Positions 11,556 to 27,391 are shown, counted from the first letter of the stretch. The stretch: 52,050 nucleotides of DNA from Candidatus Gastranaerophilales bacterium (GCA_944322855.1 CALUQG010000013.1:1-52050); one strand, 5' to 3'. The notes: generated from the sequence alone by a model not told the origin. A program made the numbers and translations.

Positions 11556-12029
11556 ATGAAATTCCACTGTTGTGGGCTGGATTACAGCACAAACGACCCC
11601 GAAACATACTGGTGCATTGAGACCTACAATATGAAACAGCCATCTTTAAAAAAGATTGGGATGTACAAAGTTGACAAAGAGATCGTATATGCCCTTTTCT
11701 GCAAGAAAAATCACTGCTGTCAGGTGAAAATAATCCGTTATGGAAACATTGACGGTGTATCTAAAATTCTTGAAATTAAAAAGCTCAATAAAGTAAATTC
11801 TCAATCATTTTTGGAAAGGACAAAAGACATGAGAATAAGACAACCTCAATGCTGCCCAATAAAAAGTGTTCCGACAGCAAAAAACATTCCCTGGGTTTAT
11901 GGAAAAACAATAGATGCACATACACAGGTAGCCCGGTATCTTGATGAATCAGGAAACAGAGATGTTTTTAAGAATAACAAATGGGTTCCTGAAATTATAA
12001 AATCTACTTTAAAAATGTATAAACTTTAA
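11556..12029 (+). CDS. Cysteine-rich element protein of unknown function
   Basis: A 157-residue soluble protein without signal peptide or membrane segment. Cysteine pairs occur at the start (HCCGLDYS), near residue 55 (CKKNHCC) and near 107 (QCCPIK), suggesting metal binding, possibly zinc. The C-terminal third is basic and polar (YLDESGNRDVFKNNKWVPEI). It is the first gene of the phage-like element, with a good ribosome binding site (TTCAGGAG), and is followed by its own terminator. I do not recognise a family. A regulator or morphogenesis factor is conceivable, but nothing in the sequence proves either. Confidence 0.6.
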   Translation: MKFHCCGLDYSTNDPETYWCIETYNMKQPSLKKIGMYKVDKEIVYALFCKKNHCCQVKIIRYGNIDGVSKILEIKKLNKVNSQSFLERTKDMRIRQPQCCPIKSVPTAKNIPWVYGKTIDAHTQVARYLDESGNRDVFKNNKWVPEIIKSTLKMYKL

Positions 12030-12046
12030 CTCTCTATTTAGCCTCC

Positions 12047-12082
12047 GGGGGAGAAACAACTCCCGTACTCCCCCTTTTCTTT
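12047..12082 (+). terminator. Terminator after the first element gene
   Basis: GGGGGAG (12047-12053) pairs with CTCCCCC (12068-12074), followed by TTTTCTTT. It separates the cysteine-rich gene from the tail-chaperone gene. Confidence 0.75.
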
Positions 12083-12123
12083 AAGCAAAATAATTAATAT
12101 TCATAAAAAAGAAAGGACAACTA

Positions 12124-12486
12124 ATGATTACAGAAATTTTAACAAAACCTGCAGAAATACGGATTGAAAACAATTCATACAAAATAGAATATGACAACAA
12201 GGCTTATGCACAGCTGGAAATGATGACAGGCAAAGGTGTTTTTCAAATCTATGAAGGGCTTTTAAAAGGAACGCTGAAGCTTTCAGAATACAATGATATC
12301 GTTTGTTGTGCATTAGAAAAACACAATGATTCAAAACAAATCAAAGAAATAAAAAAATATATAGATAAAAATCCGTCATTCATAACCCAAAACATGGTAA
12401 ATATATCATCTGCTTTTGTTACTCCGTTGGTACCGCCTGAACAGGTTCAGCAAAATCAGGAGAAAAAAGCTTTAAAAAAAAAGTAG
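12124..12486 (+). CDS. Tail assembly chaperone 1, short form (gpG-like)
   Basis: A 120-residue protein with a beta-rich N-terminus (IRIENNSYKIEYDNKAYAQLE) and a helical remainder including MTGKGVFQIYEGLLKG. This matches phage and gene-transfer-agent tail assembly chaperones. It ends in a lysine tail encoded by an A-rich slippery stretch, directly before a second frame in -1 register. A minority of ribosomes should therefore make the longer G-T form, as in lambda. The chaperone binds tape-measure and tube protein during tail assembly. Ribosome binding site is AAGAAAGGA. A second, diverged copy lies at 32396. Confidence 0.8.
   Translation: MITEILTKPAEIRIENNSYKIEYDNKAYAQLEMMTGKGVFQIYEGLLKGTLKLSEYNDIVCCALEKHNDSKQIKEIKKYIDKNPSFITQNMVNISSAFVTPLVPPEQVQQNQEKKALKKK
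12472..12483 (+). promoter_or_regulatory. -1 ribosomal frameshift site of chaperone 1
   Basis: In the chaperone frame the codons read TTA AAA AAA AAG TAG, preceded by GCT. This contains two canonical -1 heptamers, T_TTA_AAA and A_AAA_AAG. The -1 frame is open from here through the next reading frame to 12716, giving a fusion of about 197 residues. Confidence 0.8.
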
Positions 12487-12518
12487 ATAATAAAAATAAA
12501 GATTTTGATTGGCTTGGA

Positions 12519-12716
12519 ATGTATACAACAGCAAGATATATATTAGGATGGAGCGAAGATGAATTCTGGAAGGCTTGTCCCAAAAAATATTTTGCTGTTT
12601 TATTCAAACTCGGGGAAATAAAAAGCTCATTGTTCCCAGCTGAAAACAAACAGGAGGTACTTGTAGGACGCAATGCCCTGAAAGCATTGTCATATATTGC
12701 ACAAAAAACAAGATGA
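12519..12716 (+). CDS. Tail assembly chaperone 1, T-domain reached by frameshift
   Basis: This frame is open upstream to the slippery site and has no ribosome binding site of its own at the ATG at 12519. Translation as the C-terminal part of a -1 frameshift fusion is therefore more likely than independent initiation. It encodes YTTARYILGWSEDEFWKACP and ends VGRNALKALSYIAQKTR. The same two patterns recur in the second chaperone extension (VGRDAIKALSYVAQRIR). In lambda the T domain recruits tail-tube subunits to the tape measure. Confidence 0.75.
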   Translation: MYTTARYILGWSEDEFWKACPKKYFAVLFKLGEIKSSLFPAENKQEVLVGRNALKALSYIAQKTR

Positions 12717-12795
12717 CAAAAAATTGTGCCACATTTGATTATTGTTATAGGTGGTTGAATTTTATATAAACAATTTACTTACAGAAAGGATTCTT

Positions 12796-14127
12796 ATGAA
12801 ATATCCTGTTTTTAAAATTCCTTATCAAGAAGCTTATACAACTTCTATTGAATTTAAAACACAAATTAACGAAAAAATGAAAGGGCTTGAACAGCGTTAT
12901 CCGGTCTGGACATACCCGAAAAGAACATTTCATCTGCGATTTGACAAAAATTTTAAAGGCCGCAAAAGACTCGAAAACTTTTTTGTATCTGTTATGGGGA
13001 AATCCGGAAAATTTGAATTTGTCTGGGAAAAAGAAAAAGGCGGCAATGGTAAAACATATCTTTGTTCTTTTAATTCCGACAGTTTCCAGCAGACTATCAA
13101 AGAGCTCGGTTTTAGCGAAACAGAACTCGAGTTGGAATGCATTGACGACTCTCCTGTTGAACAGGTTAACGAATTGGATTTTTACCACAATGCTGAATGT
13201 GATTTTTCTCTAAACTTTTCTACTATTATCGACAAAATACTTACCGCCCAAAATAACAGAAAGGCTTACTGGGACAAACCACAAAAAAGCTGGACTCTTA
13301 AATTTGAAAAGTCTGCAAAAGTCAGAAAAAAACTCGAAGATTTTTTTATTGCCAAAAGAGGAATGTTTCGTTCTTTTGAATGGACATGGAAAGAAGAACT
13401 CGGCGGTGACGGCAACACATATACAGTACGCTTTGACAGTGATATTCTTGATGTAAACATTGATGCTTATGGTTTTGGAAGTTTTGAGATAAAGCTTAGA
13501 GAAGTTTTTCCAAATTCAAATCCTATGAGTGAAGTTGAAAAAGATGAAATAATCCCGAGAAAGCTTTTAAAAATTGAAATTGAAGGCGGTTCTATTTTTA
13601 TACTCGACAACGAGACACTCTCTTCGCTTGTGTACAACGGGGAAAATTATATTGGTGCACCTTTAACAATTGATGAAATAAAAAAAGATGACAATTCAAG
13701 TGTATCTAAGCTCAACATTAAACTCTCCAATGTCGCACTTGCCATATCAGGCATTATCGGAAACAGAGGGGATGTTATCACAAATGCACCTGCTGTTTTA
13801 ACTCTTGTATTTTTGGACATAAACACAAATTCAATTCTTTCAAATTATACGCAAATACTTTATGCCGGACGATGCAACAATTTGAAACTGGATTATGAAG
13901 AAGCGGAAATGGATATTGAGACTTCTCTCGGTGGATATGAAATTCAGGCCCCTGTTATGAAATACCGGACGACATGTCAGGTTAGACGTTTCAAAGATTG
14001 CCGCTGCGGCTATACAGGAACAGAAACTTCATGTGACAGAACACTCACAAGATGTAAAGAACTTGGCAACGAACAAAATTTTAGGGGATTTCCGCAAATG
14101 TACAACGAACTCGTAATCAGAGTTTAA
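12796..14127 (+). CDS. Tail tip protein: duplicated DUF2460/gpM-like part plus gpL/BR0599-like part
   Basis: I use the ATG at 12796 (ribosome binding site AAAGGA); an upstream start at 12751 lacks one. The 443-residue protein contains a tandem repeat of a distal-tail-like domain at about 1-125 and 135-250; compare KTFHLRF...GGNGKTYLCSF with KSWTLKF...GGDGNTYTVRF. A gpL/BR0599-like domain follows, ending with cysteines typical of that family (CQVRRFKDCRCGYTG, CDRTLTRCKEL, FRGFPQM), which may hold an Fe-S or metal centre. In lambda-like tails, gpM and gpL cap the tape measure and precede gpK. Here the gpK-like gene lies 20 kb away. Confidence 0.7.
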   Translation: MKYPVFKIPYQEAYTTSIEFKTQINEKMKGLEQRYPVWTYPKRTFHLRFDKNFKGRKRLENFFVSVMGKSGKFEFVWEKEKGGNGKTYLCSFNSDSFQQTIKELGFSETELELECIDDSPVEQVNELDFYHNAECDFSLNFSTIIDKILTAQNNRKAYWDKPQKSWTLKFEKSAKVRKKLEDFFIAKRGMFRSFEWTWKEELGGDGNTYTVRFDSDILDVNIDAYGFGSFEIKLREVFPNSNPMSEVEKDEIIPRKLLKIEIEGGSIFILDNETLSSLVYNGENYIGAPLTIDEIKKDDNSSVSKLNIKLSNVALAISGIIGNRGDVITNAPAVLTLVFLDINTNSILSNYTQILYAGRCNNLKLDYEEAEMDIETSLGGYEIQAPVMKYRTTCQVRRFKDCRCGYTGTETSCDRTLTRCKELGNEQNFRGFPQMYNELVIRV

Positions 14128-14219
14128 TTTTTGAGTTTAAATTATTGTCGCAATTATTCAGTATTGCGGTCTGTAAACAGTCAAATCTTATACAGCTTAA
14201 CACAGAAAATGAGGTAACT

Positions 14220-15599
14220 ATGATAACTAATTTTGATATAAAAAACATAAAGAATGATTCTGATACACTAGAAAGATTTTCCAGATACTCTCAATATAAG
14301 GATCTTTATGACGGGGATTTTAACAGAGCTTTTAATTCTACTGTCCTAAAAATCAGAAAGCGCTATCCGCTTGACAATACAACAGCCCAATCACTCATCA
14401 ACATAAATCTGTTCTGGGCTTTGACAGATTTTTTCAAGGGTTTTATAACAAATCAAGGTATTCAGGTTAATGTTGATGACAGCAAACAAAAAATATGGGA
14501 TGAAATATCAGCCAAGAACAATTTTGTTTCTGTTTTGAAAGAAGTCTATATTGACAATTCACGTTTCGGAAACGGAATTTTTAAAGTTGCACGTGAAAAC
14601 AATGAAGTAAAAATTTTCTCAATTTCTCCTGACTGCTGGATACCGGTTTTCAACAACGGAAACCTCAATGATATAGAAGGGCATATACTTGTTTATCCTC
14701 TGAAAATTATTGAAAACGGTGTAAAAAAACAGTTCAAAAAAATAGAAAAGCACCACAGAGGTTACATCGAAAATGAGATATGGACATGTGTAAACAATGA
14801 AATCGGCAGACAACTTGATACTGAAGAATTAGAACAATTCAATATTGAAGCAGTAGAAGACTATTCGACATATTGGAATGATTTTCTTGTTTTTCCTGTA
14901 AAAAACACAACAGAAAGTGATTCTTATTTTGGAGAAAGTGATTATAAAAGATGCAAATCTATTGTTGAAGAAATTATGCTAACTATCAGCCAGAATTCAA
15001 AAATTATAAACAGGCATGCAAACCCCAAACTTTCAGGAAGCGAACAAAATCTGGAGCTTGATCCTGTTACAAATATCAGGATGTTTCCTAACACAGATTT
15101 TATCAAAGTAGGAACTGACGGCATAAAACCTGAATATCTCACTGCAGATCTGCAGGCTGATGCTATCCAGAGACATATCGATACACTATTAAACTTTTTC
15201 TATATTCTGACCAAAACTCCTCCTCAAGCATACGGATTAAATATTGCAGGAAATATGTCAGGAGAAAGCCTGAGAAAAATTTTCTTAGCAGCACTTGCCA
15301 AAGTTGATGATATAAAACAGGTTTCTTTCAATTCTTCTATCCAAAAAGTAGCGCAATGCGCAATGGCATTGAATTTCACTCCGATAAAAAGTGCAAACGT
15401 ATCATGGGGTGAGCCTATTCCTGCAGATTATTCGGAAATGGTCACAACTGAAAACAGCAGAGTCTCAGCCGGAACCCAAAGCAAACTAACAACTATTATG
15501 ACTCTTGATAATGTATCAGAAGAAGATGCAAAAAAAGAACTGGACAGAATAAATCAAGAACAAAAACCAATACAGGAAGAAAAAACTCCTCTTTTATAA
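14220..15599 (+). CDS. Phage portal protein (SPP1 gp6-like)
   Basis: A 459-residue portal protein, read from the ATG at 14220 with GAGGTAACT as ribosome binding site; an upstream TTG at 14145 is less likely. Recognisable stretches are RFSRYSQYKDLYDGDF at the start, an internal stem/clip part, and the C-terminal crown with TKTPPQAYGLNIAGNMSGESLRK, which is typical of the SPP1 gp6 group. Portals form the dodecameric DNA channel at one capsid vertex and bind TerL. Unusually, the gene is followed by a terminator and lies 16 kb upstream of the terminase genes. The -1 frame stays open about 35 codons past its stop. Confidence 0.82.
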   Translation: MITNFDIKNIKNDSDTLERFSRYSQYKDLYDGDFNRAFNSTVLKIRKRYPLDNTTAQSLININLFWALTDFFKGFITNQGIQVNVDDSKQKIWDEISAKNNFVSVLKEVYIDNSRFGNGIFKVARENNEVKIFSISPDCWIPVFNNGNLNDIEGHILVYPLKIIENGVKKQFKKIEKHHRGYIENEIWTCVNNEIGRQLDTEELEQFNIEAVEDYSTYWNDFLVFPVKNTTESDSYFGESDYKRCKSIVEEIMLTISQNSKIINRHANPKLSGSEQNLELDPVTNIRMFPNTDFIKVGTDGIKPEYLTADLQADAIQRHIDTLLNFFYILTKTPPQAYGLNIAGNMSGESLRKIFLAALAKVDDIKQVSFNSSIQKVAQCAMALNFTPIKSANVSWGEPIPADYSEMVTTENSRVSAGTQSKLTTIMTLDNVSEEDAKKELDRINQEQKPIQEEKTPLL

Positions 15600-15653
15600 C
15601 TAATAATGAAGCCGAAGAAAGTCTTGTTCAAAATTTATCTGAAGAGACTACAG

Positions 15654-15684
15654 GCAGCGGTATATTAAATACCGCTGCTGTTTT
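15654..15684 (+). terminator. Strong terminator after the portal gene
   Basis: GCAGCGGTAT (15654-15663) pairs perfectly with ATACCGCTGC (15669-15678) around ATTAA, followed by TGTTTTATT. It would end late transcription before the cassette array and the capsid genes. Confidence 0.88.
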
Positions 15685-15726
15685 ATTATATTGAAAAAAA
15701 GATATGTATAATAGAACAAAACACGG

Positions 15727-16248
15727 TTACTCTCGTGTCATAATTAACTCACCTTTTTCATTATAGCAATTATTTTTTATCCAGTGACCAATTAATTTTT
15801 TATCTGCATCAAAAACAAATTGTTCTTTATCAGATAGCTCTATAGCCACATCTGATAATATTCCTTTTATATCATATTTTATTGTTCTTTTGGGATAATC
15901 AGGTGAGCTGCTTATTCCTATATTTTCCAAATCCCCTTCATCAGTGTAATAATAGGCTACTGTCTTTGCTTTTTTATATGCATATGCATATCCTCCGATT
16001 GAAAATCCAATTATATATCTATTATCTGCTTCATTTTTTCCAAGTTTCAGCAACATTTTATTTTCTTCATAAAATGGATCTTTTAAGACTTTTCCATATT
16101 TATTTATATTTATTTTTTTTGATACACCTTTAAAGGCATCTCTTTTTGCATCTGCAAAAGTATACGTTACACCAGCCTTTATCGTACGTGCGTCAGCTGT
16201 TGACATAAAAAATAAAAATATAAATAAAATTACTAAATATTTTTTCAT
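15727..16248 (-). CDS. Exported paralogue A of the array
   Basis: A 173-residue protein, read from the ATG at 16248 because MKKYLVILFIFLFFMSTADA is a clean signal peptide; an upstream ATG at 16311 adds only non-signal residues. The mature part has the family pattern GVTYTFADAKRDAF, then INKYGKVLKDPFYEENK, then three 'Y-Y-x-x-x-G-x-L' style beta segments (YYYTDEGDLENI, IKYDIKGILSDV, FVFDADKKLIGHW), and ends NEKGELIMTRE. The segments faintly recall MORN-2 or YD-type repeats; no family is assigned. TATAAT ends 6 bases before ATG, so a leaderless mRNA is likely. It is nearly identical to paralogues F and H. Confidence 0.75.
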   Translation of the reverse strand: MKKYLVILFIFLFFMSTADARTIKAGVTYTFADAKRDAFKGVSKKININKYGKVLKDPFYEENKMLLKLGKNEADNRYIIGFSIGGYAYAYKKAKTVAYYYTDEGDLENIGISSSPDYPKRTIKYDIKGILSDVAIELSDKEQFVFDADKKLIGHWIKNNCYNEKGELIMTRE

Positions 16249-16281
16249 ACTTACATTATAACAAAGAAAGGGGTGTATTAT

Positions 16282-16377
16282 ATGGTAAACCCAGAAACAT
16301 TCATAAATCATTCACAAGACAAAGACAAAGAAAAAGAATTTGACAAAGAGCTCAAAAAATACTACGAGAGGAAATGA
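16282..16377 (+). pseudogene. Tape-measure 5' fragment 1 (31 codons)
   Basis: ATG with AAAGGGG ribosome binding site; peptide leader MVNPETFINH followed by the conserved SQDK...KKYYER block and a stop. It contains a duplicated QDK (6 extra bases). It reads in the same direction and frame as the start of the intact tape-measure gene at 20715. Confidence 0.75.
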
Positions 16378-16383
16378 ATACGG

Positions 16384-16905
16384 TTACTTCCGCATTTTAA
16401 CTAACTCACCTTTTTTATTATAACAATTTTCTTTTATCCAGTGGAACTGCATTTCTTTATTTTTATCAAACATATATTGTTCATTTGCTGAAATTACTAA
16501 ACTAACCGAATCCAAATGTCCTTTAGCATCATACATAATATATTTTTTAGGATATACATCTCCATACATGAAACCCATTGACACAAGTTTTCCATTTTTA
16601 TCATAGTAAAAACAAGGGTTAACCAGCTTTTTATATCTAATGGAATAACCTCCATCTGAAAATTTTGTTAAATACCTATTCCAAACATTAAACTTTTCTT
16701 TTAACAATAATTTTTTATTCTTGCAGTAGTTTTTATCTTTCATATATTTTGAATATTCGTCCATATTAATAGACATACGAGTATTTTCAAATGAAAGTTT
16801 TCTCGCATTTTCGACATTATATACAATACCGCCAATTAATGTATCAGCTTGGACTGTTAACTTAAAACAACATATTATACAAATTAAAATTAAAAATTTA
16901 TACAT
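16384..16905 (-). CDS. Exported paralogue B of the array
   Basis: A 173-residue protein with an N-terminal hydrophobic signal (MYKFLILICIICCFKLTVQA). It has the same layout as paralogue A but is strongly diverged: GGIVYNVENARKLSF, MKDKNYCKNK, YYDKNGKLVSM, YMFDKNKEMQFHW, ending NKKGELVKMRK. It has two extra cysteines in the mature part. TATTAT ends 6 bases before ATG, with no ribosome binding site. The protein and gene are identical to paralogue D because the whole unit is duplicated. Probable periplasmic or envelope protein; function unknown. Confidence 0.75.
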   Translation of the reverse strand: MYKFLILICIICCFKLTVQADTLIGGIVYNVENARKLSFENTRMSINMDEYSKYMKDKNYCKNKKLLLKEKFNVWNRYLTKFSDGGYSIRYKKLVNPCFYYDKNGKLVSMGFMYGDVYPKKYIMYDAKGHLDSVSLVISANEQYMFDKNKEMQFHWIKENCYNKKGELVKMRK

Positions 16906-16938
16906 AATTCAATAATAACATATTAAAAAGGAGGAAAA

Positions 16939-17046
16939 ATGCAAAATAATTTTGAAAATTCACAAGACAAAGAAAAAGAATTTGACAAAGAGCTCAAAAA
17001 ATACTACGAGAGGAACAAAATATTGTTACTCTCGTGTCATAATTAA
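16939..17046 (+). pseudogene. Tape-measure 5' fragment 2 (35 codons)
   Basis: Ribosome binding site AAGGAGG, ATG, leader MQNNFEN, then the conserved block. It continues NKILLLSCHN into the 3' end of reverse gene C and stops there. The junction with the reverse gene is therefore after the codons for YYERNK, further into the tape-measure gene than in fragments 1, 3 and 5. Confidence 0.75.
17006..17035 (-). terminator. Hairpin at a cassette junction (also at 18300-18329)
   Basis: ACGAGAG (17006-17012) pairs with CTCTCGT (17029-17035) and AACAA with TTGTT inside it, leaving one G/A mismatch. One arm comes from the tape-measure fragment, the other from the last codons of the reverse gene. On the minus strand a TTTTTT run follows, so the junction can terminate the reverse gene. 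Other junctions form a similar GGAAGT/ATTTCC hairpin. Confidence 0.6.
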
Positions 17047-17553
17047 CTCACCTTTTTCATTATAGCAATTTTCACCTATCCATACCCCAGCAAAGTAACC
17101 CCTGTTATCAAACATATATACTTTATTGTATTCTGTATACAGGCCTACTCCTTCAAGTGTGCCGTTATTTTTATATTTGATAGTTCTGAATGGATATTCA
17201 TTATGTTTTCTTTCGTCAATTGTTATATATATTAAATGTCCATTTTTATCATAATAAAAATTCTCATTTGGATTTTCTTTATAGAAAACAGAATAACAAC
17301 CATTTGAAAATTTTGTTAAGTAACGATTTCTATATTTGTACCTTCCTTTCTCCATTAATCTTTTATTAGAGATATAATAAGGATCATTTAAATTTTTTTT
17401 ATACAAATACATATCTAAATTATTATTTAGATTTTTAAACGCAAGCTCTTTTGCAATATCAATACTATATGAAATACCACCTTTTATTGTTTCAGCATTT
17501 ACCGGAGTAACTAACAAAAATATTAATATTAAAATATATAATCTTATTTTCAT
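17026..17553 (-). CDS. Exported paralogue C of the array
   Basis: A 175-residue protein with a signal peptide (MKIRLYILILIFLLVTPVNA). The mature part follows the family plan: KGGISYSIDIAKELAF, YKKNLNDPYYISNKRL, FYYDKNGHLIYI, YKNNGTLEGVGLY, YMFDNRGYFAGVW, ending NEKGELIMTRE. It is the most diverged member apart from its C-terminal tail, which is nearly identical to that of A and E. A TAAAAT lies 8 bases before the ATG. The contrast between a diverged body and conserved 3' end fits recombination at the tape-measure fragment next to the stop codon. Confidence 0.75.
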   Translation of the reverse strand: MKIRLYILILIFLLVTPVNAETIKGGISYSIDIAKELAFKNLNNNLDMYLYKKNLNDPYYISNKRLMEKGRYKYRNRYLTKFSNGCYSVFYKENPNENFYYDKNGHLIYITIDERKHNEYPFRTIKYKNNGTLEGVGLYTEYNKVYMFDNRGYFAGVWIGENCYNEKGELIMTRE

Positions 17554-17587
17554 TTGTCTTTATTTTAGCATGAAAGGAGAATTACCT

Positions 17588-17671
17588 ATGGATACATTAT
17601 TTAATAAAAAAACTCAAGACAAAGAAAAAGAATTTGACAAAGAGCTCAAAAAATACTACGAGAGGAAATGA
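17588..17671 (+). pseudogene. Tape-measure 5' fragment 3 (27 codons)
   Basis: Ribosome binding site AAAGGAG, ATG, leader MDTLFNKKT, conserved block, stop directly after YYERK. The leader is unlike those of the other copies. Confidence 0.75.
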
Positions 17672-17677
17672 ATACGG

Positions 17678-18199
17678 TTACTTCCGCATTTTAACTAACT
17701 CACCTTTTTTATTATAACAATTTTCTTTTATCCAGTGGAACTGCATTTCTTTATTTTTATCAAACATATATTGTTCATTTGCTGAAATTACTAAACTAAC
17801 CGAATCCAAATGTCCTTTAGCATCATACATAATATATTTTTTAGGATATACATCTCCATACATGAAACCCATTGACACAAGTTTTCCATTTTTATCATAG
17901 TAAAAACAAGGGTTAACCAGCTTTTTATATCTAATGGAATAACCTCCATCTGAAAATTTTGTTAAATACCTATTCCAAACATTAAACTTTTCTTTTAACA
18001 ATAATTTTTTATTCTTGCAGTAGTTTTTATCTTTCATATATTTTGAATATTCGTCCATATTAATAGACATACGAGTATTTTCAAATGAAAGTTTTCTCGC
18101 ATTTTCGACATTATATACAATACCGCCAATTAATGTATCAGCTTGGACTGTTAACTTAAAACAACATATTATACAAATTAAAATTAAAAATTTATACAT
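17678..18199 (-). CDS. Exported paralogue D of the array (identical to B)
   Basis: The encoded 173-residue protein is identical to paralogue B residue for residue, and by eye the DNA is identical too. Signal peptide, cysteine positions, -10 box and spacing to ATG are as in B. The copy arose by tandem duplication of a unit bounded by tape-measure fragments. Perfect identity means either a very recent event or ongoing gene conversion. An assembly artefact is less likely, because the flanking units differ. Confidence 0.75.
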   Translation of the reverse strand: MYKFLILICIICCFKLTVQADTLIGGIVYNVENARKLSFENTRMSINMDEYSKYMKDKNYCKNKKLLLKEKFNVWNRYLTKFSDGGYSIRYKKLVNPCFYYDKNGKLVSMGFMYGDVYPKKYIMYDAKGHLDSVSLVISANEQYMFDKNKEMQFHWIKENCYNKKGELVKMRK

Positions 18200-18232
18200 A
18201 ATTCAATAATAACATATTAAAAAGGAGGAAAA

Positions 18233-18340
18233 ATGCAAAATAATTTTGAAAATTCACAAGACAAAGAAAAAGAATTTGACAAAGAGCTCAAAAAATACTA
18301 CGAGAGGAACAAAATATTGTTACTCTCGTGTCATAATTAA
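18233..18340 (+). pseudogene. Tape-measure 5' fragment 4 (copy of fragment 2)
   Basis: Same sequence and reading frame as fragment 2, offset by 1294 bases, because it lies in the duplicated block. It overlaps the 3' end of reverse gene E. Confidence 0.75.
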
Positions 18341-18838
18341 CTCACCTTTTTCATTATAGCAATTATTTTTTATCCAGTGACCAATTAATTTTTTATCTGT
18401 GTCAAAAACAAATTGTTCTTTTATTGATAATTCCAGTATTACGCTCTGCCATACTCCTGATGAATCATATTTTATTGTTCTTCTTGGATAATCAGGTGAG
18501 CTGCTTATTCCTATATTTTCCAAATCACCTTCATCAGTGTAATAATAGGCTACTGTCATTGCTTTTTTATATGCATATGCATATTTGCGGCTCGAAAACC
18601 CAATTATATTTCTATTATCTGCTTCATTTTTCCCAAGTTTCAACAACATTTTATTTTCTTTATAAAATGGATCTTTTAAGACTTTTCCATATTTATTTAT
18701 ATTTATTTTTTTTGATACACCTTTAAAGGCATCTCTTTTTGCATCTGCTACTGTGTATGATACACTTCCTCTCAATGTAAAGGAGGTCATCATCACTGCT
18801 GCTATTATTATCGATACTATCTTTACATACTTTTTCAT
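18320..18838 (-). CDS. Exported paralogue E of the array
   Basis: A 172-residue protein whose signal peptide differs from its close relatives (MKKYVKIVSIIIAAVMMTSF), while the mature part is almost the same as in A, F and H. It is therefore a chimera: its 5' end comes from another family member. It starts only 13 bases after the stop of gene F, with no tape-measure fragment between. F and E are thus probably co-transcribed, and I see no clear promoter or ribosome binding site for E itself. The C-terminal IMTRE tail matches A and C. Confidence 0.72.
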   Translation of the reverse strand: MKKYVKIVSIIIAAVMMTSFTLRGSVSYTVADAKRDAFKGVSKKININKYGKVLKDPFYKENKMLLKLGKNEADNRNIIGFSSRKYAYAYKKAMTVAYYYTDEGDLENIGISSSPDYPRRTIKYDSSGVWQSVILELSIKEQFVFDTDKKLIGHWIKNNCYNEKGELIMTRE

Positions 18839-18851
18839 TTCTATTAAAAAA

Positions 18852-19373
18852 TTATTTTCTGGTATTTATTAACTTACCATTTTCATCATAACAATTATTT
18901 TTTATCCAGTGGCCTATCAGTTTTTTGTCTGCATCAAAAACAAATTGTTCTTTATCAGATGGCTCTATAATCACATTTGATAATATTCCTTTTGTATCAT
19001 ATTTTATTGTTCTTCTTGGATAATCAGGCGAGTTGCTTATTCCTATATCTTCCAAATCTCCTTCATCTGTGTAATAATAGGCTACTGTCATTGCTTTTTT
19101 ATATGCATATGCATAGCTGCCTCTTGAAAATCCAATTATATATCTATTATCTGCTTCATTTTTTCCAAGTTTCAACAACATTTTATTTTCTTTATAAAAT
19201 GGATCTTTTAAGACTTTTCCATATTTATTTATATTTATTTTTTTTGATACACCTTTAAAGGCATCTCTTTTTGCATCTGCAAAAGTATACGTTACACCAG
19301 CCTTTATCGTACGTGCGTCAGCTGTTGACATAAAAAATAAAAATATAAATAAAATTACTAAATATTTTTTCAT
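18852..19373 (-). CDS. Exported paralogue F of the array
   Basis: A 173-residue protein with signal peptide MKKYLVILFIFLFFMSTADA, nearly identical to A and H over its length. Differences cluster in the middle (FSRGSYAYAYKKAMT) and at the end, which reads DENGKLINTRK instead of the common tail. It is the one member whose 3' end does not adjoin a tape-measure fragment, and the only one with an unusual tail. This supports the idea that the fragment boundary homogenises the 3' ends of the others. TATAAT lies 6 bases before ATG. Confidence 0.75.
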   Translation of the reverse strand: MKKYLVILFIFLFFMSTADARTIKAGVTYTFADAKRDAFKGVSKKININKYGKVLKDPFYKENKMLLKLGKNEADNRYIIGFSRGSYAYAYKKAMTVAYYYTDEGDLEDIGISNSPDYPRRTIKYDTKGILSNVIIEPSDKEQFVFDADKKLIGHWIKNNCYDENGKLINTRK

Positions 19374-19406
19374 ACTTACATTATAACAAAGAAAGGGGTG
19401 TATTAT

Positions 19407-19496
19407 ATGGTAAGTTCAGAAACATTCATAAATCATTCACAAGACAAAGAAAAAGAATTTGACAAAGAGCTCAAAAAATACTACGAAAGGAAATGA
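19407..19496 (+). pseudogene. Tape-measure 5' fragment 5 (29 codons)
   Basis: AAAGGGG ribosome binding site, ATG, leader MVSSETFINH (close to fragment 1), conserved block with one synonymous change (GAAAGG for GAGAGG), then stop. Confidence 0.75.
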
Positions 19497-19502
19497 ATAC
19501 GG

Positions 19503-20027
19503 TTACTTCCGTGTATAAATTAACTCACCTTTTTCATTATAATAATTATCATCCTTCCAATGTCCTACAAATTCCCCATTTGTACGAAATACATATTGCT
19601 CAGCTCCAGAAATATATAAACACACAGACACTAAATTCCCCGACATGTCATATTTAAAAGCCTTTTGAGGATATCTGATCCTATCATATTTTTCTATATA
19701 AACAAGATTTCCATTATCATAATAGAAACTTATCATCGGCATATTTTTATAGCATACAGCATATTCTCTACCATCAAAATAAGTTATATAATAATCTTTA
19801 TATTTATTTTTTTTATTTTTATCAAAATTACAATTTCTCTTTATATTTGGATCTTTAAAATACAATTCATATTGACTTACATCAATCTTATAAGGAACAT
19901 TTAAAAATGCATCATGTCTTGCATTTTCTACAGTATATTCCACTTTCCCTTTAATTGTGTATGCTAAAGCATTTTGAAAAATCATTGTATAAACAATAAT
20001 CAATACATATATAAATAAGTTTTTCAT
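19503..20027 (-). CDS. Exported paralogue G of the array
   Basis: A 174-residue protein with a signal peptide (MKNLFIYVLIIVYTMIFQNA). Mature part: GKVEYTVENARHDAF, YELYFKDPNIKRN, ITYFDGREYAVCYK, FYYDNGNLVYI, FKYDMSGNLVSVCLY, YVFRTNGEFVGHW, ending NEKGELIYTRK. It is a diverged subtype with the same order of motifs as the other members. TAAAAT ends 6 bases before the ATG and there is no ribosome binding site. The last codons are shared with H rather than with A, C and E, giving two tail classes in the array. Confidence 0.75.
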   Translation of the reverse strand: MKNLFIYVLIIVYTMIFQNALAYTIKGKVEYTVENARHDAFLNVPYKIDVSQYELYFKDPNIKRNCNFDKNKKNKYKDYYITYFDGREYAVCYKNMPMISFYYDNGNLVYIEKYDRIRYPQKAFKYDMSGNLVSVCLYISGAEQYVFRTNGEFVGHWKDDNYYNEKGELIYTRK

Positions 20028-20062
20028 TTTTGTATTTTAACATTAGAAAGGAATAATAAAAT

Positions 20063-20152
20063 ATAGAATCTTTAAAACAAATTAACAAAAATTCTCAAGA
20101 CAAAGAAAAAGAATTTGACAAAGAGCTCAAAAAATACTACGAGAGGAAATGA
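20063..20152 (+). pseudogene. Tape-measure 5' fragment 6, start codon lost
   Basis: The frame and ribosome binding site (AGAAAGGAAT) are kept, but the codon in the start position is ATA, not ATG (20063). A stop lies two codons upstream. Without initiation this copy cannot be translated normally, which argues that the fragments are not needed as peptides. Confidence 0.7.
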
Positions 20153-20158
20153 ATACGG

Positions 20159-20680
20159 TTACTTCCGTGTATAAATTAACTCACCTTTTTCATCATAACA
20201 ATTATTTTTTATCCAGTAACCTATCAGTTTTTTGTCTGCATCAAAAACAAATTGTTCTTTATCAGATAGCTCTATAATCACATTTGATAATATTCCTTTT
20301 GTATCATATTTTATTGTTCTTTTGGGATAATCAGGCGAGCTGCTTATTCCTATATGTTCCAAATCTCCTTCATCAGTGTAATAATAGGCTACTGTCTTTG
20401 CTTTTTTATATGCATATGCATATCCTCCGATTGAAAATCCAATTATATATCTATTATCTGCTTCATTTTTTCCAAGTTTCAGCAACATTTTATTTTCTTC
20501 ATAAAATGGATCTTTTAAGACTTTTCCATATTTATTTATATTTATTTTTTTTGATACACCTTTAAAGGCATCTCTTTTTGCATCTGCAAAAGTATACGTT
20601 ACACCAGCCTTTATCGTACGTGCTTCAGCTGTTGACATAAAAAATACAAATATAAATAAAATTACTAAATATTTTTTCAT
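20159..20680 (-). CDS. Exported paralogue H, adjacent to tape-measure gene 1
   Basis: A 173-residue protein read from the ATG at 20680, where MKKYLVILFIFVFFMSTAEA forms the signal peptide; a longer frame to 20782 would overlap the tape-measure gene. The body is almost the same as A (FSIGGYAYAYKKAKT, YYYTDEGDLEHI, IKYDTKGILSNV), with tail DEKGELIYTRK. TATAAT lies 6 bases before ATG. It diverges from tape-measure gene 1 across only 34 bases, the arrangement each older unit repeats. Probably an envelope protein; I infer a role tied to the tape measure from position only. Confidence 0.75.
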   Translation of the reverse strand: MKKYLVILFIFVFFMSTAEARTIKAGVTYTFADAKRDAFKGVSKKININKYGKVLKDPFYEENKMLLKLGKNEADNRYIIGFSIGGYAYAYKKAKTVAYYYTDEGDLEHIGISSSPDYPKRTIKYDTKGILSNVIIELSDKEQFVFDADKKLIGYWIKNNCYDEKGELIYTRK

Positions 20681-20714
20681 ACTTACATTATAACAAAGAA
20701 AGGGGTACATTAAT

Positions 20715-21662
20715 ATGAGAAATATGAACACATACATAGAAAATTCACAAGACAAAGAAAAAGAATTTGACAAAGAGCTCAAAAAATACTACGAGAGGAA
20801 CAAAGATTTTTTTGACAGCATTAAAAATATCACAGATTCTCTTTACAAACAAAACAAAGACTATGTCGCTCTCATCAAAAATGCAAAACAATACCATTCA
20901 AAAATCTTTGCTCTTCGTAATTTTCTCTTCGGGGCTTCTGACGAACAAATCGCCAATTCCGAAATCGAATTCAATGAAACTACTGAAAAAATCAGCTCAT
21001 CTTCTCTTTCTGAACCCGAAAAAAAAGCAGCTTACCGCATGGCATACAATGACAAAGAAGTTCAGGATCAAAAAAATTATGCTGATGGTTTCATTGACAA
21101 AACTTTTAAAACCGCCGGTGATGAAGCTGCTGAAAGTCTCAAAAATGTTCTTTTAGGCTATCAAAGTTTCTCTGAAGGGATGAAAAGTGTCGGTGTTGAA
21201 TTGAGCGAGTTTATGCTTCAACAGTTGACACAGACTCTCACTCAAATGCTTTTTAGTGCTCAAACTGCTCAACTTGCAGCAAAAGGGTTCAAGTCTCTTA
21301 TTGGCTCCGGCAAAGGAGTTTTTAGTTCTATTGGCGGAGCTTTGAGTCGTGTTTTCACCAGGCATTCGGGCGGTATTATCCCTAACGGCGCCAATTATGA
21401 AATCCCGGGCACTGATGAACAGCTTGCGCTTTTGAAAGGCGGTGAAAGAATTCTCAGTCCCGGTGAAAATGCCGGTTACAATTCTTCTGCAGGCTACAAT
21501 TCCGCTTCTCCTGTTGTTTTCAACAATTTCAATATCAAAGCCTGGGATTCCAAAGATGTTAAAAAATATCTCCTTGAAAACAGAAATCTTTTGAACACAA
21601 TTACTTTTCAGGGAATTAAAGACAACCACTCTCAGCTAAGAACCATGGTCAGAAATGCTTGA
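20715..21662 (+). CDS. Tail tape-measure protein 1
   Basis: A 315-residue protein with AAAGGGG ribosome binding site. The N-terminus holds the leader and QDKEKEFDKELKKYYER block copied through the array. A helical coiled-coil-like region (30-180) follows, then a small-residue hydrophobic stretch (185-225, LAAKGFKSLIGSGKGVFSSIGG). The C-terminal domain starts HSGGIIPNGANYEIPGTDEQLALLKGGERILSPGE, typical of tape-measure C-termini. Tape measures set tail length and enter the cell envelope at DNA ejection. Its last ~100 residues almost match tape measure 2 at 33550, whereas the N-terminal parts are unrelated by eye. Confidence 0.78.
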   Translation: MRNMNTYIENSQDKEKEFDKELKKYYERNKDFFDSIKNITDSLYKQNKDYVALIKNAKQYHSKIFALRNFLFGASDEQIANSEIEFNETTEKISSSSLSEPEKKAAYRMAYNDKEVQDQKNYADGFIDKTFKTAGDEAAESLKNVLLGYQSFSEGMKSVGVELSEFMLQQLTQTLTQMLFSAQTAQLAAKGFKSLIGSGKGVFSSIGGALSRVFTRHSGGIIPNGANYEIPGTDEQLALLKGGERILSPGENAGYNSSAGYNSASPVVFNNFNIKAWDSKDVKKYLLENRNLLNTITFQGIKDNHSQLRTMVRNA

Positions 21663-21679
21663 AGAATAGGTTTTATCAC

Positions 21680-21713
21680 TTTTGCAGGAGAGTATTATTT
21701 CTCTCCGGCAAAA
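21680..21713. terminator. Bidirectional hairpin between tape-measure 1 and membrane-protein operon
   Basis: TTTTGC (21680-21685) pairs with GCAAAA (21708-21713) and GGAGAG with CTCTCC inside it. It lies between two converging transcription units and can serve both. Confidence 0.7.
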
Positions 21714-21738
21714 TTAAACAAAACTAAAAACAAAAAAT

Positions 21739-22161
21739 CTACAAGCGTTTCTCCATTTTTCTTTGCACATATTTCAGCAGTCTTATGAAGATGAAAAGAA
21801 ATGGAATTATTAAAAATAATAAATATTTATCGAAATATATCGTTATACATACAATAAGAGTTAACGGCAAAAATGATATGCCAATATCAAAGAAATAATC
21901 ATACAAATTATTTTTTAATAAAATTTCATTTTTTATTTTTTTATTAAACACCCATCCATATATATACAGCATTATTGAAAATAACAGCAGCCACAAAAAT
22001 AACGGAATGACTATCAGCATCAAATACAATTCGAGAGTAGTACCCAGTGTACTAGTTTTTGGTAACACGATAAATAAAAAAATCACAAACAAAATCCAAC
22101 CTGTATATGACAATGCATGCGTTCCATAATATTTTTTTGGTGCATAAAAATCAATTTTCAT
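21739..22161 (-). CDS. Membrane protein, paralogue 3 of a trio (candidate immunity protein)
   Basis: A 140-residue protein from the ATG at 22161 (ribosome binding site AGAGGTG). It begins MKIDFYAPKKYYGTHALSY, has four hydrophobic segments, and ends with the tail FIRLLKYVQRKMEKRL shared by the trio. The start overlaps the stop of the preceding paralogue by 11 bases, showing a tight operon. Multipass membrane proteins beside lipase-type effectors are often their immunity proteins. That is inference; no family is recognised. Confidence 0.7.
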   Translation of the reverse strand: MKIDFYAPKKYYGTHALSYTGWILFVIFLFIVLPKTSTLGTTLELYLMLIVIPLFLWLLLFSIMLYIYGWVFNKKIKNEILLKNNLYDYFFDIGISFLPLTLIVCITIYFDKYLLFLIIPFLFIFIRLLKYVQRKMEKRL

Positions 22162-22582
22162 TTTTACACCTCTTATCCATTTTTCTTTGCACATATTTCA
22201 GCAGTCTTATAAAAATGAAAAGAAACACTAAACATAAAACGGGTACAAGTTTAAATTTGCATACTTCATAATACCAGACAATAGGAATAAAAACAAACAC
22301 AATTCCCATATCATAAATAAAATCATACAAACAATTTTTAACAATAAATTTATTTCTGATTTTTGATTTAAAGATAATTTGGAACACTAAAATCAAAACA
22401 GCTAATAATAAAAAATCTATAGGAATTAATGTAATTAAAAAATACCATATGGCCATACCCTGGCTGCAGTTATCTTTTCCTAGCGGAAGAAAAATATTAT
22501 ATACAAATAGATTAACCCAACCACTTAATACAAGGATATGGGTAAAATAATATTTTTTCGGTGCATAAAAATCAATTTTCAT
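22151..22582 (-). CDS. Membrane protein, paralogue 2 of a trio (candidate immunity protein)
   Basis: A 143-residue protein from the ATG at 22582 with AGAGGTG as ribosome binding site. The first residues (MKIDFYAPKKYYFTH) and last residues (FIRLLKYVQRKMDKRCKNEN) match the flanking paralogues, while the four membrane segments between them are strongly diverged. Conserved ends with a variable middle suggest repeated duplication followed by diversification, as expected if each copy recognises a different partner. It overlaps its neighbours by about 11 bases on both sides. Confidence 0.7.
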   Translation of the reverse strand: MKIDFYAPKKYYFTHILVLSGWVNLFVYNIFLPLGKDNCSQGMAIWYFLITLIPIDFLLLAVLILVFQIIFKSKIRNKFIVKNCLYDFIYDMGIVFVFIPIVWYYEVCKFKLVPVLCLVFLFIFIRLLKYVQRKMDKRCKNEN

Positions 22583-22994
22583 TTTTACACCTCTTCTCCA
22601 TTTTTCTTTGCACATATTTCAGCAGTCTTATGAAGATGAAAAGAATTAATAAAGGCAACAAATCTTTAATTTCCGTATCACACCACCAAAATAAAGGAAT
22701 AAAATTCAAAACAAAACCAATGTCTAAGAATATATCGTAAAAAATATTTTTCAGCATAAAATAATTTTTCAATTTGAATTTAAAAATTAAATCCATCACA
22801 TAAATAACAACAACACAACCTAAACCCACGAAAACAGCATTATATAAAAAAAGGATAAAAACAAAATATCCTTCTAAACATTGAGTTTTGCCTATAGGAG
22901 AAAATATTTCATACAAAAATAGAATAATCCATCCACATATACCTAACGCATGCGTTCCATAATATTTTTTCGGTGCATAAAAATCAATTTTCAT
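22572..22994 (-). CDS. Membrane protein, paralogue 1 of a trio (candidate immunity protein)
   Basis: A 140-residue protein from the ATG at 22994; an upstream start at 23021 is less likely. It has the same plan as the other two: MKIDFYAPKKYYGTHALGI, four hydrophobic segments, and a tail FIRLLKYVQRKMEKRCKNEN. It is the promoter-proximal gene of the trio. TATATT lies 7 bases before the ATG with no ribosome binding site, so this transcript is probably leaderless and made independently of the phage operon. It is divergent from the lipase gene, with only 40 bases between start codons. Confidence 0.7.
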   Translation of the reverse strand: MKIDFYAPKKYYGTHALGICGWIILFLYEIFSPIGKTQCLEGYFVFILFLYNAVFVGLGCVVVIYVMDLIFKFKLKNYFMLKNIFYDIFLDIGFVLNFIPLFWWCDTEIKDLLPLLILFIFIRLLKYVQRKMEKRCKNEN

Positions 22995-23034
22995 AAAAAA
23001 CAATATAACACATTTAACCAAAAAGGATAAAACT

Positions 23035-24189
23035 ATGACTCAAAATTTGAATGACGACTTGAAAAAACTATCAATATATGTCTATGATAACAAAAAAAAT
23101 TCGCTCCCATCAGGATGGGAAAAAATATATACTCAAAAAAATACCCAAAATGGTTTCTATGGTGAAGCTTACAAAAAAAACAATGAAATTGTTATTGTTT
23201 ACAGAGGAACTGATACAAATAAAATTTCATTGCCTGATAAACAAGATTTTATAATAGGTGATTTACCAATGTGGTTTGGGCTTAACTCAGGTCAATACGA
23301 TGATGCAAAAAAAATGTTTGATACAATAAACAAAAAATATGGTTCAAAAAGAATTATACTCACCGGACATTCTCTCGGCGGAAGCCTTGCTCAAATTGTT
23401 TCTGCTGACACAGGAAGAAAAGCTGTTACATTCAATGCATTCGGCACAGGTGAAATTTTAAACAGAATGGGATATAAAAACCAAAATCTGCTTGATATAA
23501 CAAATTATGGAAATGAAAATGATTATGTTTTTACTTCCAAAATAAATCATCAACCCGGAACTACTTACCTGACAAATACAAACCTCAACCCGGATACCGA
23601 AGCTGCTGCAAAATACATGCCTCATATTCAAATGTTTAAAGCAAACAATCACAAACTTGAAAATATGAATGAACTTGAAAAGGCAGTTAAACTAACAAAT
23701 CAGAACAATTCTTATAAATATTCTGACACATTACTCAAAGGTTCTGTATCATATGATGATTTTGACGATATTTCAGAAGATGAATTGGCGGAATTATTAT
23801 TTAATGAAAATGATACAGACTCTTATACTATAAAAAGCCAAATTCTTGCAGAACTAAAAAAGCCTCAGGAAAACAAAGTTAAACAAGCAATACAAAATCT
23901 TTTCGGAAAAGAACATTCTACTGATAAAAAAGATTTTGATGAAAACAAAGATTACAGTAACTATATCAATGAAGTTACAAAAACGAATATTATCTATACC
24001 CAAGAAGATATAGATAATATGAGCAAAGAAGATTATAAAAAAAATCAAAAAACTATTGAATACCAAAAAGAAAAAATTGGCATTCCAACAAAGAAACAAG
24101 CAAAAGAATCCGGACTGGTATACGTTTCGGGTTATACAAGATCTGACGGAACAAAAGTTAAAAGCTACTATAGAGCAAGACCGGCATAA
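23035..24189 (+). CDS. Lipase-type putative effector with shared C-terminal module
   Basis: A 384-residue protein with no signal peptide. Residues about 10-200 form an alpha/beta-hydrolase of the class-3 lipase / DUF2974 type: IVIVYRGTD, then ILTGHSLGGSLAQIV with the nucleophile serine near 113, then VTFNAFGTGE. Candidate acid and His residues follow (NENDYVFT, MPHIQMF). Residues about 280-384 are a separate module ending VYVSGYTRSDGTKVKSYYRA, shared with the protein at 29651. Ribosome binding site is AAAAAGGATAAAA. Phospholipase effectors attack membranes. Paired with the divergent membrane-protein trio, this looks like an effector/immunity set, but a virion or lysis enzyme is also possible. 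Confidence 0.72.
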   Translation: MTQNLNDDLKKLSIYVYDNKKNSLPSGWEKIYTQKNTQNGFYGEAYKKNNEIVIVYRGTDTNKISLPDKQDFIIGDLPMWFGLNSGQYDDAKKMFDTINKKYGSKRIILTGHSLGGSLAQIVSADTGRKAVTFNAFGTGEILNRMGYKNQNLLDITNYGNENDYVFTSKINHQPGTTYLTNTNLNPDTEAAAKYMPHIQMFKANNHKLENMNELEKAVKLTNQNNSYKYSDTLLKGSVSYDDFDDISEDELAELLFNENDTDSYTIKSQILAELKKPQENKVKQAIQNLFGKEHSTDKKDFDENKDYSNYINEVTKTNIIYTQEDIDNMSKEDYKKNQKTIEYQKEKIGIPTKKQAKESGLVYVSGYTRSDGTKVKSYYRARPA

Positions 24190-24246
24190 CAAAAATTAGC
24201 TTTCCGGTGACTTGCCCGATGTTTTTTAATACTGTATCATTTATGT

Positions 24247-24756
24247 ATGAAGAAGTTTTTGTTCACAATTTTGGCAGTATCTGTTTACTTTATTTCAATC
24301 TGTTTTGTTCAGGCAGAAGAAGTCTACATCCATCCGATTGACAGGCAGGAAAGCGAATGCAAACAAAAAGCCTCAACCATGGAAGAATGGACAAGATGCA
24401 CTTATATTGCAACAAAAGCCTGGAACAACGAGGTTGACAAATATTATTCGCTTTTATACAAAAAGCTTAGCGGCGATGCAAAAACAAATTTTTATGATGA
24501 CCAGAAATACTGGAATTTATACAAAAATTGTGAAATAAAACTGCTGAATGCCCTCTATGACAAAGATCAGGAAACTAAAGAAAAGCTTATGTTCCGCTCA
24601 AACCAGAAAAGAAATATTGTAAAAAGCAGGGCTGAAGCTTTGAGAATGTATTATATCCACACTTTCCCCGACGATGACAAAGAAAAAATTAAACTTAATT
24701 CTGAATACAGCCCTGATAATATTCTTATCCGCTGCTTGCACTACATCGGGCTTTGA
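24247..24756 (+). CDS. Exported LprI / DUF1311-like protein
   Basis: A 169-residue protein with a signal peptide (MKKFLFTILAVSVYFISICFVQA). The mature part holds the DUF1311 pattern: ECKQKASTMEEWTRCTYIATKAW, then NEVDKYYSLLYKKL, then DDQKYWNLYKNCEIK, with paired cysteines. This domain is found in LprI-type lysozyme inhibitors. Inhibition has been shown only for some family members. TATCAT lies 6 bases before the ATG, so it is probably expressed on its own from a leaderless mRNA. The same element encodes a GH108 muramidase, so protection against lysozyme-like activity is a reasonable guess. Confidence 0.65.
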   Translation: MKKFLFTILAVSVYFISICFVQAEEVYIHPIDRQESECKQKASTMEEWTRCTYIATKAWNNEVDKYYSLLYKKLSGDAKTNFYDDQKYWNLYKNCEIKLLNALYDKDQETKEKLMFRSNQKRNIVKSRAEALRMYYIHTFPDDDKEKIKLNSEYSPDNILIRCLHYIGL

Positions 24757-25207
24757 TTTCAAAAGGCAGGATGATGAAATTCAATCTTTTTGCATAACAA
24801 AGGCAAAAAATTCTGATGAAGCATCCATTCTTTTCTGGAACTGGCTTATGTATCAAACAAGGCTGACCCCAAAAACTGCTGCTTTACACAATATTTATCA
24901 GCAGGACAGTGCTGCATTCTTCTATGACCTTGACGGCGACGGCAAAAGAGAAATTCTCGGTACTCATTATTCATCCGCTCTTTCAGGGATGGGAGATTGT
25001 TTATTATATATTCTAAAATACGATGAAAAAAATCCTTCGAAATACAAAAAAATTTCAGATTACATATATTTTGATGCAGCATCGCCGTTGTATATTCTTG
25101 AGGAAAAATCCACGCAATATCATAAAATAAAAGTACATTCTGCAGATGACAACAACATAAAGTATTTTTCTTTTGATAAGAGAAAAAATTTGTATACTGA
25201 AAACTAA
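24674..25207 (+). CDS. Putative lipoprotein with a DxDxDG-type motif
   Basis: A 177-residue protein. The N-terminus is basic and hydrophobic and ends in a lipobox (LSAAC, cysteine at about residue 22). The mature part contains FFYDLDGDGKREILG, a calcium-binding-like D-x-D-x-D-G loop seen in FG-GAP/VCBS-like beta domains, and a beta-rich C-terminal half. Its first 83 bases overlap the end of the LprI-like gene in another frame, so the two are translationally linked. No family recognised. I infer an envelope role jointly with the LprI-like protein. Confidence 0.62.
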   Translation: MTKKKLNLILNTALIIFLSAACTTSGFDFKRQDDEIQSFCITKAKNSDEASILFWNWLMYQTRLTPKTAALHNIYQQDSAAFFYDLDGDGKREILGTHYSSALSGMGDCLLYILKYDEKNPSKYKKISDYIYFDAASPLYILEEKSTQYHKIKVHSADDNNIKYFSFDKRKNLYTEN

Positions 25208-25314
25208 AATATTTAACAAACCAATCATTTTTTCTAACTAACATTATTACAACCATCAGGCTGCAGTCCTTTGAACAGGGCTTTGTGCAGCCGCAAAAAC
25301 AGAAAGGAGTTCCT

Positions 25315-25872
25315 ATGTCAGGCACACAGGACATTATTCCGGCTGAGCAAAATTCTTCTGAAATTGTTCAGTCCGATCAAACAGGTATTGATGAAAACGA
25401 AAAGCAGCAGGTAACACAAAATCCGGAACAACTCACTCCTGCTCAAAAGATGGACAACCTGCTTCGAGGTTCTTCATCAGGGTATTTGAGAAAAGAAATT
25501 GAAAAATTAAGAAAAGAATCGGCAAGATACCGTATAGCATCAAAAACCGAAGCAGCACAAAAGCTTGAAGTCATGAAAAAAGCAGCAGAAGTTCAAAAAG
25601 AACTGGATATGCTCAAAGAATCAAACAGAAATCTTAAAATAATGAGAGCGCTTGACAAAGCCGGCTGCATCAAAAGCGATCTTGTCTCAAAAGATATCCC
25701 CTTAGATTGCGAAGATATTGATGAATTTATTAAAAATTACAAAGATGCAAACCAATTTCTTTTCAAAAATCCTCCGGAAAGTATCGGAAGCACCTTCAAG
25801 ACTTCCGGTACAAAAAACTTAACCCCTGCACAGCGAATGGATGCATTCATTCGTGCGGCTGCAGGCAGATAA
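25315..25872 (+). CDS. Phage scaffolding protein
   Basis: A 185-residue protein from the ATG at 25315 (AGAAAGGAG); an upstream frame start at 25285 lacks a site. It is acidic and Gln-rich at the start. A long coiled coil (about 55-115, KEIEKLRKESARYRIASKTE through QKELDMLKESNRNLK) follows, with a helical C-terminal part. The segment LTPAQKMDNLLRG recurs near the end as LTPAQRMDAFIRA. Length, coiled coil and position immediately before the capsid gene fit a Gp20-type scaffold, which guides capsid assembly and is then removed. Confidence 0.75.
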   Translation: MSGTQDIIPAEQNSSEIVQSDQTGIDENEKQQVTQNPEQLTPAQKMDNLLRGSSSGYLRKEIEKLRKESARYRIASKTEAAQKLEVMKKAAEVQKELDMLKESNRNLKIMRALDKAGCIKSDLVSKDIPLDCEDIDEFIKNYKDANQFLFKNPPESIGSTFKTSGTKNLTPAQRMDAFIRAAAGR

Positions 25873-25903
25873 AGATTACTCAGTTTAATTGAAAGGACAA
25901 AAC

Positions 25904-26851: not shown

Positions 26852-26884
26852 TAAAAAAAATAACTATTTAGTACAACACTTACT

Positions 26885-26915: not shown

Positions 26916-26926
26916 AAGGAGACAAG

Positions 26927-27373: not shown

Positions 27374-27391
27374 AAACACAGGAGAATACTT

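Follow-up and report, generated by a model that had tools for sequence, protein, structure and literature searches.

Why should a phage tape-measure gene be preceded by a row of genes for exported proteins, with copies of its own beginning set between them? The question is raised by a 52,050-nt stretch of Candidatus Gastranaerophilales DNA (GCA_944322855.1 CALUQG010000013.1:1-52050; hereinafter the window), from contig 13 of a draft metagenome genome of 2.0 Mb and 98% completeness whose nearest relatives are Gastranaerophilales metagenome genomes. The gene in question, TMP-A (20715..21662, plus strand), encodes a 315-aa tape-measure-like protein that matches phage tape-measure proteins (TMPs) only weakly (phrog_339, E 1.5e-6), and its 5' block is the anchor for insertion and recombination. 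Comparison with related genomes leads us, with high confidence, to a mechanism in which the array would have grown by sequential displacement at the TMP 5' end, the old end being kept each time as a truncated scar.

Eight paralogues, encoded on the minus strand and 172-175 aa long, are contained in the array; they have Sec-type signal peptides (judged by eye), and all are present in the region that the original prediction had described. We call this family of opposite-strand signal-peptide paralogues exp, and designate a copy adjacent to TMP as active and any other copy as an orphan. The orphans are exp 1 (15727..16248, with an N-terminal signal peptide), exp 2 (16384..16905), exp 3 (17026..17553), exp 4 (17678..18199, exactly identical to exp 2), exp 5 (18320..18838), exp 6 (18852..19373), and exp 7 (19503..20027), while exp 8 (20159..20680) is active. 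Between them lie plus-strand fragments of the TMP 5' end. Specifically, fragment 1 (16282..16377) has an ATG, a ribosome-binding site (RBS), the leader MVNPETFINHS, the core and a stop; fragment 2 (16939..17018), fragment 3 (17588..17671) and fragment 5 (19407..19496) each have an ATG, an RBS and their own leaders (MQNNFENS, MDTLFNKKT and MVSSETFINHS, respectively); fragment 4 (18233..18312) is an exact copy of fragment 2; and in fragment 6 (20063..20152) ATA replaces ATG. Thus each fragment has its own leader and five of the six retain an ATG and an RBS, as predicted. The alternation of genes and fragments that had been proposed stands for these six fragments and fails between exp 5 and exp 6, where the gap (18839-18851) is 13 nt long and holds no TMP fragment.

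The identity of the fragments is defined by a 44-mer of the TMP 5' block, which occurs in seven copies, at 16324, 16966, 17618, 18260, 19443, 20099 and 20751. The last copy lies inside TMP-A itself. With up to three mismatches allowed, the 44-mer is absent elsewhere in the 2.0-Mb genome, and a reversed-pattern control gave no match. A 749-bp segment is repeated letter for letter (16322-17070 and 17616-18364); because such a perfect repeat occurs in a draft metagenome assembly, the copy number in the window is open to doubt. A relative, G015, has eight non-identical units and is free of this doubt.

Arrays of this kind are widespread among relatives. In the 23 genomes of the genus, TMP relatives are found in 21, often at two loci each, and exp is found in all 23, both at TMP genes and as conserved chromosomal genes. 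exp lies directly 5' of TMP at 27 TMP loci in 20 genomes, in numbers from one to eight and with differing contents. Two geometries occur: type I, in which exp is on the strand opposite to TMP, as in the window array, and type II, in which both are on the same strand, as at 33025-34521 of the window. Type II arrays extend to the further genera g18 and g31; in most g17 members, terminase is followed by TMP without exp between them. G020 has a mixed array, consisting of a type II orphan, its scar, and then a type I active unit. All but three gaps in the arrays hold an RBS and a start codon, followed by a leader that varies and by the 5' block of the local TMP in truncated form. The gaps without a scar are 18839-18851 of the window and two in G014, where three exp genes are adjacent. 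Even the single-unit loci G022:C51 and G009:C112 retain a displaced TMP start beyond exp. In G013 (L119 363-1506), the scar between two exp genes is unusually large: the TMP 5' fragment extends to roughly codon 73, and other DNA adds several hundred bases.

A generic dispersed repeat was considered as the source of the fragments and rejected: a 111-nt query from the TMP 5' end of G015 matches only exp/TMP arrays in the 23 genomes, apart from 21-nt chance matches. An apparent case far from TMP, an exp gene with a fragment in G002:C6, was likewise set aside; the contig ends there, after MTP-TerL-tail2115, and the pair is most likely a broken-off part of the same array. The original prediction had expected arrays of differing length and order, with new units at the TMP end, and fragments confined to such arrays. 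The comparison agrees with both expectations, in that neither the length nor the content of arrays is constant, additional units are found towards TMP, and the fragments do not occur as generic repeats.

How do the arrays grow? Orphans of one genome recur as active genes of another, with amino-acid identities of 86-97%. The orphan-active pairs are G015 6568 and G012 17758 (88%), G021 6186 and G008a 8466 (96%), G016 10646 and G018 8892 (97%), and G008b 7098 and G011 1053 (86%). In G012, a 5228-like unit is followed by a 6568-like unit, which is active; G015 has the same order with one extra unit between them, and carries four more units between the counterpart of G012's active unit and TMP. The scars tell the same story, since a scar of G016 matches the live TMP start of G018 and a scar of G021 matches that of G008. 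The orphan-active matches, the TMP-side additions and the scar matches together indicate that new units enter at the TMP 5' block and leave the old starts behind, consistent with the proposed entry of foreign modules at this conserved block. The polarity, namely growth at the TMP end, rests on few pairs and is a comparative reading rather than an observed event. Comparison of these loci shows that a unit comprises exp together with the beginning of TMP, from the RBS and start codon through the variable leader to the conserved 5' block; an incoming unit gives the resident TMP a new start, and the old 5' end stays as a scar. Many scars amount to short frames whose ends have decayed, and we read them as vestiges.

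The extent of the exchange is defined by near-identical TMP genes that differ in their cassettes. When G015:C55 is compared with G022:C43, or one G008 locus with the other, most windows along TMP show 96-100% identity from the conserved block through to its stop codon, whereas identity in the leader is only 43-60% and the proximal exp halves are unlike. Within type II arrays, the N-terminal end of exp is 90-100% identical and the C-terminal half about 21-60% identical; in most type I arrays, the C-terminal end is about 70-100% identical and the N-terminal half about 25-55%. Thus, whichever the gene orientation, the TMP-distal part of exp is near uniform within arrays and the TMP-proximal part varies, which argues that geometry, not protein function, decides which half is variable. 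In three transferred type II cassettes, the synonymous divergence (dS) is 0-0.02 in the C-terminal half and 0.19-0.75 in the N-terminal half, indicating that the proximal half recently moved into a resident distal half. Comparison therefore shows that the mobile cassette consists of the TMP-proximal half of exp and the short TMP leader, with two recombination anchors, one in the 5' block of TMP and the other in the distal half of exp. The distal half is homogenised within arrays.

The TMP body was considered as the partner of the variable half and ruled out by Mantel tests on type II and by examples in both types. In type II, neither the N-terminal part (r 0.00) nor the C-terminal part (r -0.05) of TMP covaries with the variable half of exp; for the distal half, covariation with TMP is seen (r 0.73). 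In type I, the variable half is modestly correlated with the C-terminal part only (r 0.36). Two statements of the original prediction change accordingly. It took the array for a record of past combinations of tape-measure and exported proteins, which is not supported, given near-identical TMP bodies beside different exp genes and the absence of variable-half covariation in type II; what the array records is past exp variable halves and TMP leaders. It also took the exchanged module to be the reverse gene plus the TMP 5' end; the TMP leader does travel, but only the proximal half of exp moves with it and the TMP body stays. It did not notice the phage-like carrier of the array, the presence of two TMP loci there, or the same-strand form in the window.

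Most orphans are intact, functional genes: the ratio of non-synonymous to synonymous change (omega) is low, indicating purifying selection. It is 0.08-0.16 for orphan-active cassettes common to different genomes, 0.25-0.39 for close paralogues within the window array, and 0.13 for one within-array pair of G022. An extended -10 motif lies near the ATG in 72 of 81 exp genes, compared with 8% in shuffles. Its commonest spacing from the start is 6 nt, so the transcript would be almost leaderless. The motif was not found upstream of the three chromosomal exp copies examined. At the other end of the genes, terminator-like hairpins overlap exp stops in the window: one (15720..15739, minus strand) covers the stop codon of exp 1, and similar hairpins lie at 16377-16396 and 17671-17690. 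Judging from these motifs, most exp genes may carry their own promoter and terminator and be transcribed separately in the manner of morons. In a scan for late-operon promoters, consensus -35/-10 sites were no commoner than in shuffles.

What would such an array be for? We consider a polymorphic exclusion or immunity repertoire, grown by sequential displacement, to be the best explanation of these comparisons, tentatively and at a little less than an even chance. exp would be made from its own promoter, exported, and would act at the envelope during DNA entry, protecting the cell from particles or phages of related lineages. Specificity would lie in the variable half and may be directed at the short TMP leader that moves together with it. 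Orphans would persist because of continued protection against variants that have since been lost, as is thought for orphan immunity genes of type VI secretion systems (T6SS) and contact-dependent inhibition (CDI) systems. Because the carrier of the array looks domesticated, exclusion of kin or rivals, and not only superinfection immunity of a temperate phage, is suggested. Exclusion at DNA entry is the best guess because exp is linked to TMP genes and exclusion systems acting on TMP are known. The linkage extends to G146 of genus g36 (L160 6021-6698), where exp is convergent with the full-length 924-aa TMP of a different, unrelated phage and overlaps its stop. Among the known systems, Ltp of TP-J34 (PMC3952083) and HK97 gp15 (PMC10883804) are prophage-encoded envelope exclusion proteins that act at DNA entry, with TMP as the proposed or shown target, and SNIPE (PMC13190303) is a literature lead for TMP as an exclusion target. 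By analogy, exp resembles Ltp and gp15 as a putative phage-linked envelope protein at TMP; however, those are single genes where exp forms arrays, and no sequence or fold homology between them and exp was found.

Several observations weigh against an exclusion repertoire. Given the absence of covariation between the variable half and the TMP body, any action of exp on TMP must go through a leader of about 7-25 residues, and exp 7991 and exp 8879 of G008 are 89% identical yet belong to different leader classes. At least one orphan is decayed (G002, with an in-frame TAA). exp has no match in PADLOC and no fold match among solved structures at E 0.001. Finally, paralogues conserved in the order rplT-exp-birA indicate that the family also has a role outside TMP loci.

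The main rival, which we consider possible though rather unlikely, holds that exp is a diversifying exported moron whose target is unrelated to TMP (e.g., the host surface or receptors of other phages), and that the TMP 5' end is merely an anchor with its leader as a passenger. The lack of covariation just described is consistent with this, as are the short, seemingly unconstrained leaders, the promoter and terminator motifs of exp, and the existence of chromosomal paralogues without any TMP. It does not readily account for the fact that nearly all element-borne exp genes of the genus lie beside TMP, a pattern that holds for either TMP locus and for either orientation, nor for the exp gene adjoining the 3' end of an unrelated phage TMP in another genus. 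A more specific proposal, speculative and to be regarded as unlikely, is that the carrier is a domesticated particle in which the N-terminal leader of TMP is a polymorphic tag and the exp array the matching exclusion repertoire, so that the array would provide kin recognition and immunity and form an ordered record of earlier tags.

Improbable, in our judgement, is a positive role in which exp is an envelope factor needed for delivery of particle DNA and arrays widen the range of donors. Entry of HK97 and lambda does involve host envelope proteins acting together with TMP (PMC13190303, PMC10883804), and the domesticated-looking element could be a gene-transfer agent; against this, a wider range of entry for foreign particles is usually costly. 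Plain tandem duplication and drift, with local copies of one exp-TMP start unit and no imported information, is disfavoured for most arrays and has little probability in general. Several window copies are 87-100% identical at the DNA level, and no scar separates exp 5 from exp 6 or the members of the G014 trio, as duplication would have it. However, type I units are mostly 35-56% identical within an array, with some 85-98% identical to units of other genomes, leaders differ, and omega is low. An assembly or binning artefact is very improbable, for although these are draft metagenome genomes whose contigs often end inside arrays, and the window contains the 749-bp perfect repeat, the same layout, with reading frames intact and units that are not identical, recurs in other genera and in 20 genomes from different species.

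An exclusion repertoire grown by displacement has counterparts at toxin loci. Orphan toxin-immunity cassettes of CDI and Rhs loci are tandem displaced gene ends beside small genes, which recombine via conserved flanks; here the anchor is at the 5' end, there is no toxin domain, and the gene is a phage structural gene. In Vibrio cholerae T6SS clusters, sequential displacement retains old immunity genes and displaced ends of the old gene (PMC5361080). The arrays are alike in displacement of a module at a conserved place and in orphans that are the active genes of other strains. They differ in that the effector 3' end is displaced there and the 5' end of a virion tape-measure gene here, that no effector domain is exchanged here with the small gene (the TMP body is constant while exp changes), and that exp lies on either strand with the TMP-proximal half always variable. 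Phage morons are likewise extra genes in a late operon with their own promoter and terminator (here, motifs), whereas exp is multi-copy, with cassette exchange and virion-gene scars. An integron-like cassette array is not supported, as the contig has no tyrosine integrase and the breakpoints lie within homologous coding sequence (attC sites were not scanned for). The original prediction knew of no described system of this form, and a search of the open-access literature found no paper describing one. A mode of growth known for orphan-immunity arrays at toxin loci is met here at a virion structural gene, in both orientations. Read in order, the array documents past exchanges of cassettes in uncultured gut bacteria, and the arrays provide natural allele swaps that bear on the role of the TMP N-terminus at DNA entry.

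The predicted structure of exp 8, of good confidence (pLDDT 88), consists of a helical start and a beta-meander, and the Sec-type signal peptide predicts export. The fold has no significant match to viral structures, and exp matches no Pfam family above cut-off. Identity as a YwqK/MORN antitoxin was considered and rejected, since the MORN_2 matches are weak and below cut-off and the fold is only weakly MORN/OspA-like. Relatives of the conserved chromosomal members (L097 and L099, both in the order rplT-exp-birA, and L098) occur in 30 of the 40 genera of the order that were sampled; their neighbourhoods (rplT-birA; a flippase) gave no function. INPHARED contains no relative of TMP or exp, and IMG/VR contains one distant TMP contig.

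The array is carried by a phage-like element (11556..41615, plus strand) with both TMP loci and genes for a DUF2460 tail protein, portal, HK97 capsid, major tail protein, terminase, J-like tail fibre and endolysin. No tyrosine integrase is present on the contig (serine recombinases and very small open reading frames were not fully searched), and none of the open reading frames scanned was recognisable as a repressor or replication gene. A terminase relative is present in 22 of the 23 genomes of the genus, mostly as one copy; it is 85-93% identical in 21 of them and only 65% in G006. Terminase dS has reached saturation, as in the host genes that flank the element; non-synonymous divergence (dN) of capsid, terminase and major tail protein is 0.04-0.10. 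The T4P-U32 peptidase flank of the window recurs in G007 and, with the element inverted, in G008, and a U32 gene also adjoins the element in G003, G014 and G021. Agreement in rank with the divergence of host PilB is moderate (Spearman 0.52, p 0.02), and identity falls genus by genus across the family. These features support a carrier that is probably a vertically inherited, domesticated phage-like element and not an ordinary prophage; a phage that always uses one site is a less probable alternative. Gene-transfer agents and PBSX-like defective prophages are similar in their intact structural genes, about one copy per genome, similar site, host-scale divergence and lack of a detected integrase. 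The carrier is a candidate domesticated phage-like particle in Gastranaerophilales.

In the window, the second locus of the element consists of exp 9 (33025..33540, plus strand), a same-strand exported-protein gene, and TMP-B (33550..34521, plus strand), a second tape-measure-like gene 44% identical to TMP-A. The layout of two TMP paralogues per element, each with its own exp, recurs in relatives, e.g., G012:C15 and G008:C11. In the latter (12001-55700; L106, L107), the U32 peptidase flank is shared but the element next to it is inverted in its entirety. The phage-like element is also found in several other genera of the family. The DUF2460 and portal genes (12751-15599) are upstream of the array here and downstream of TMP in most relatives, and a terminator-like hairpin (15653-15679, plus strand) precedes the array.

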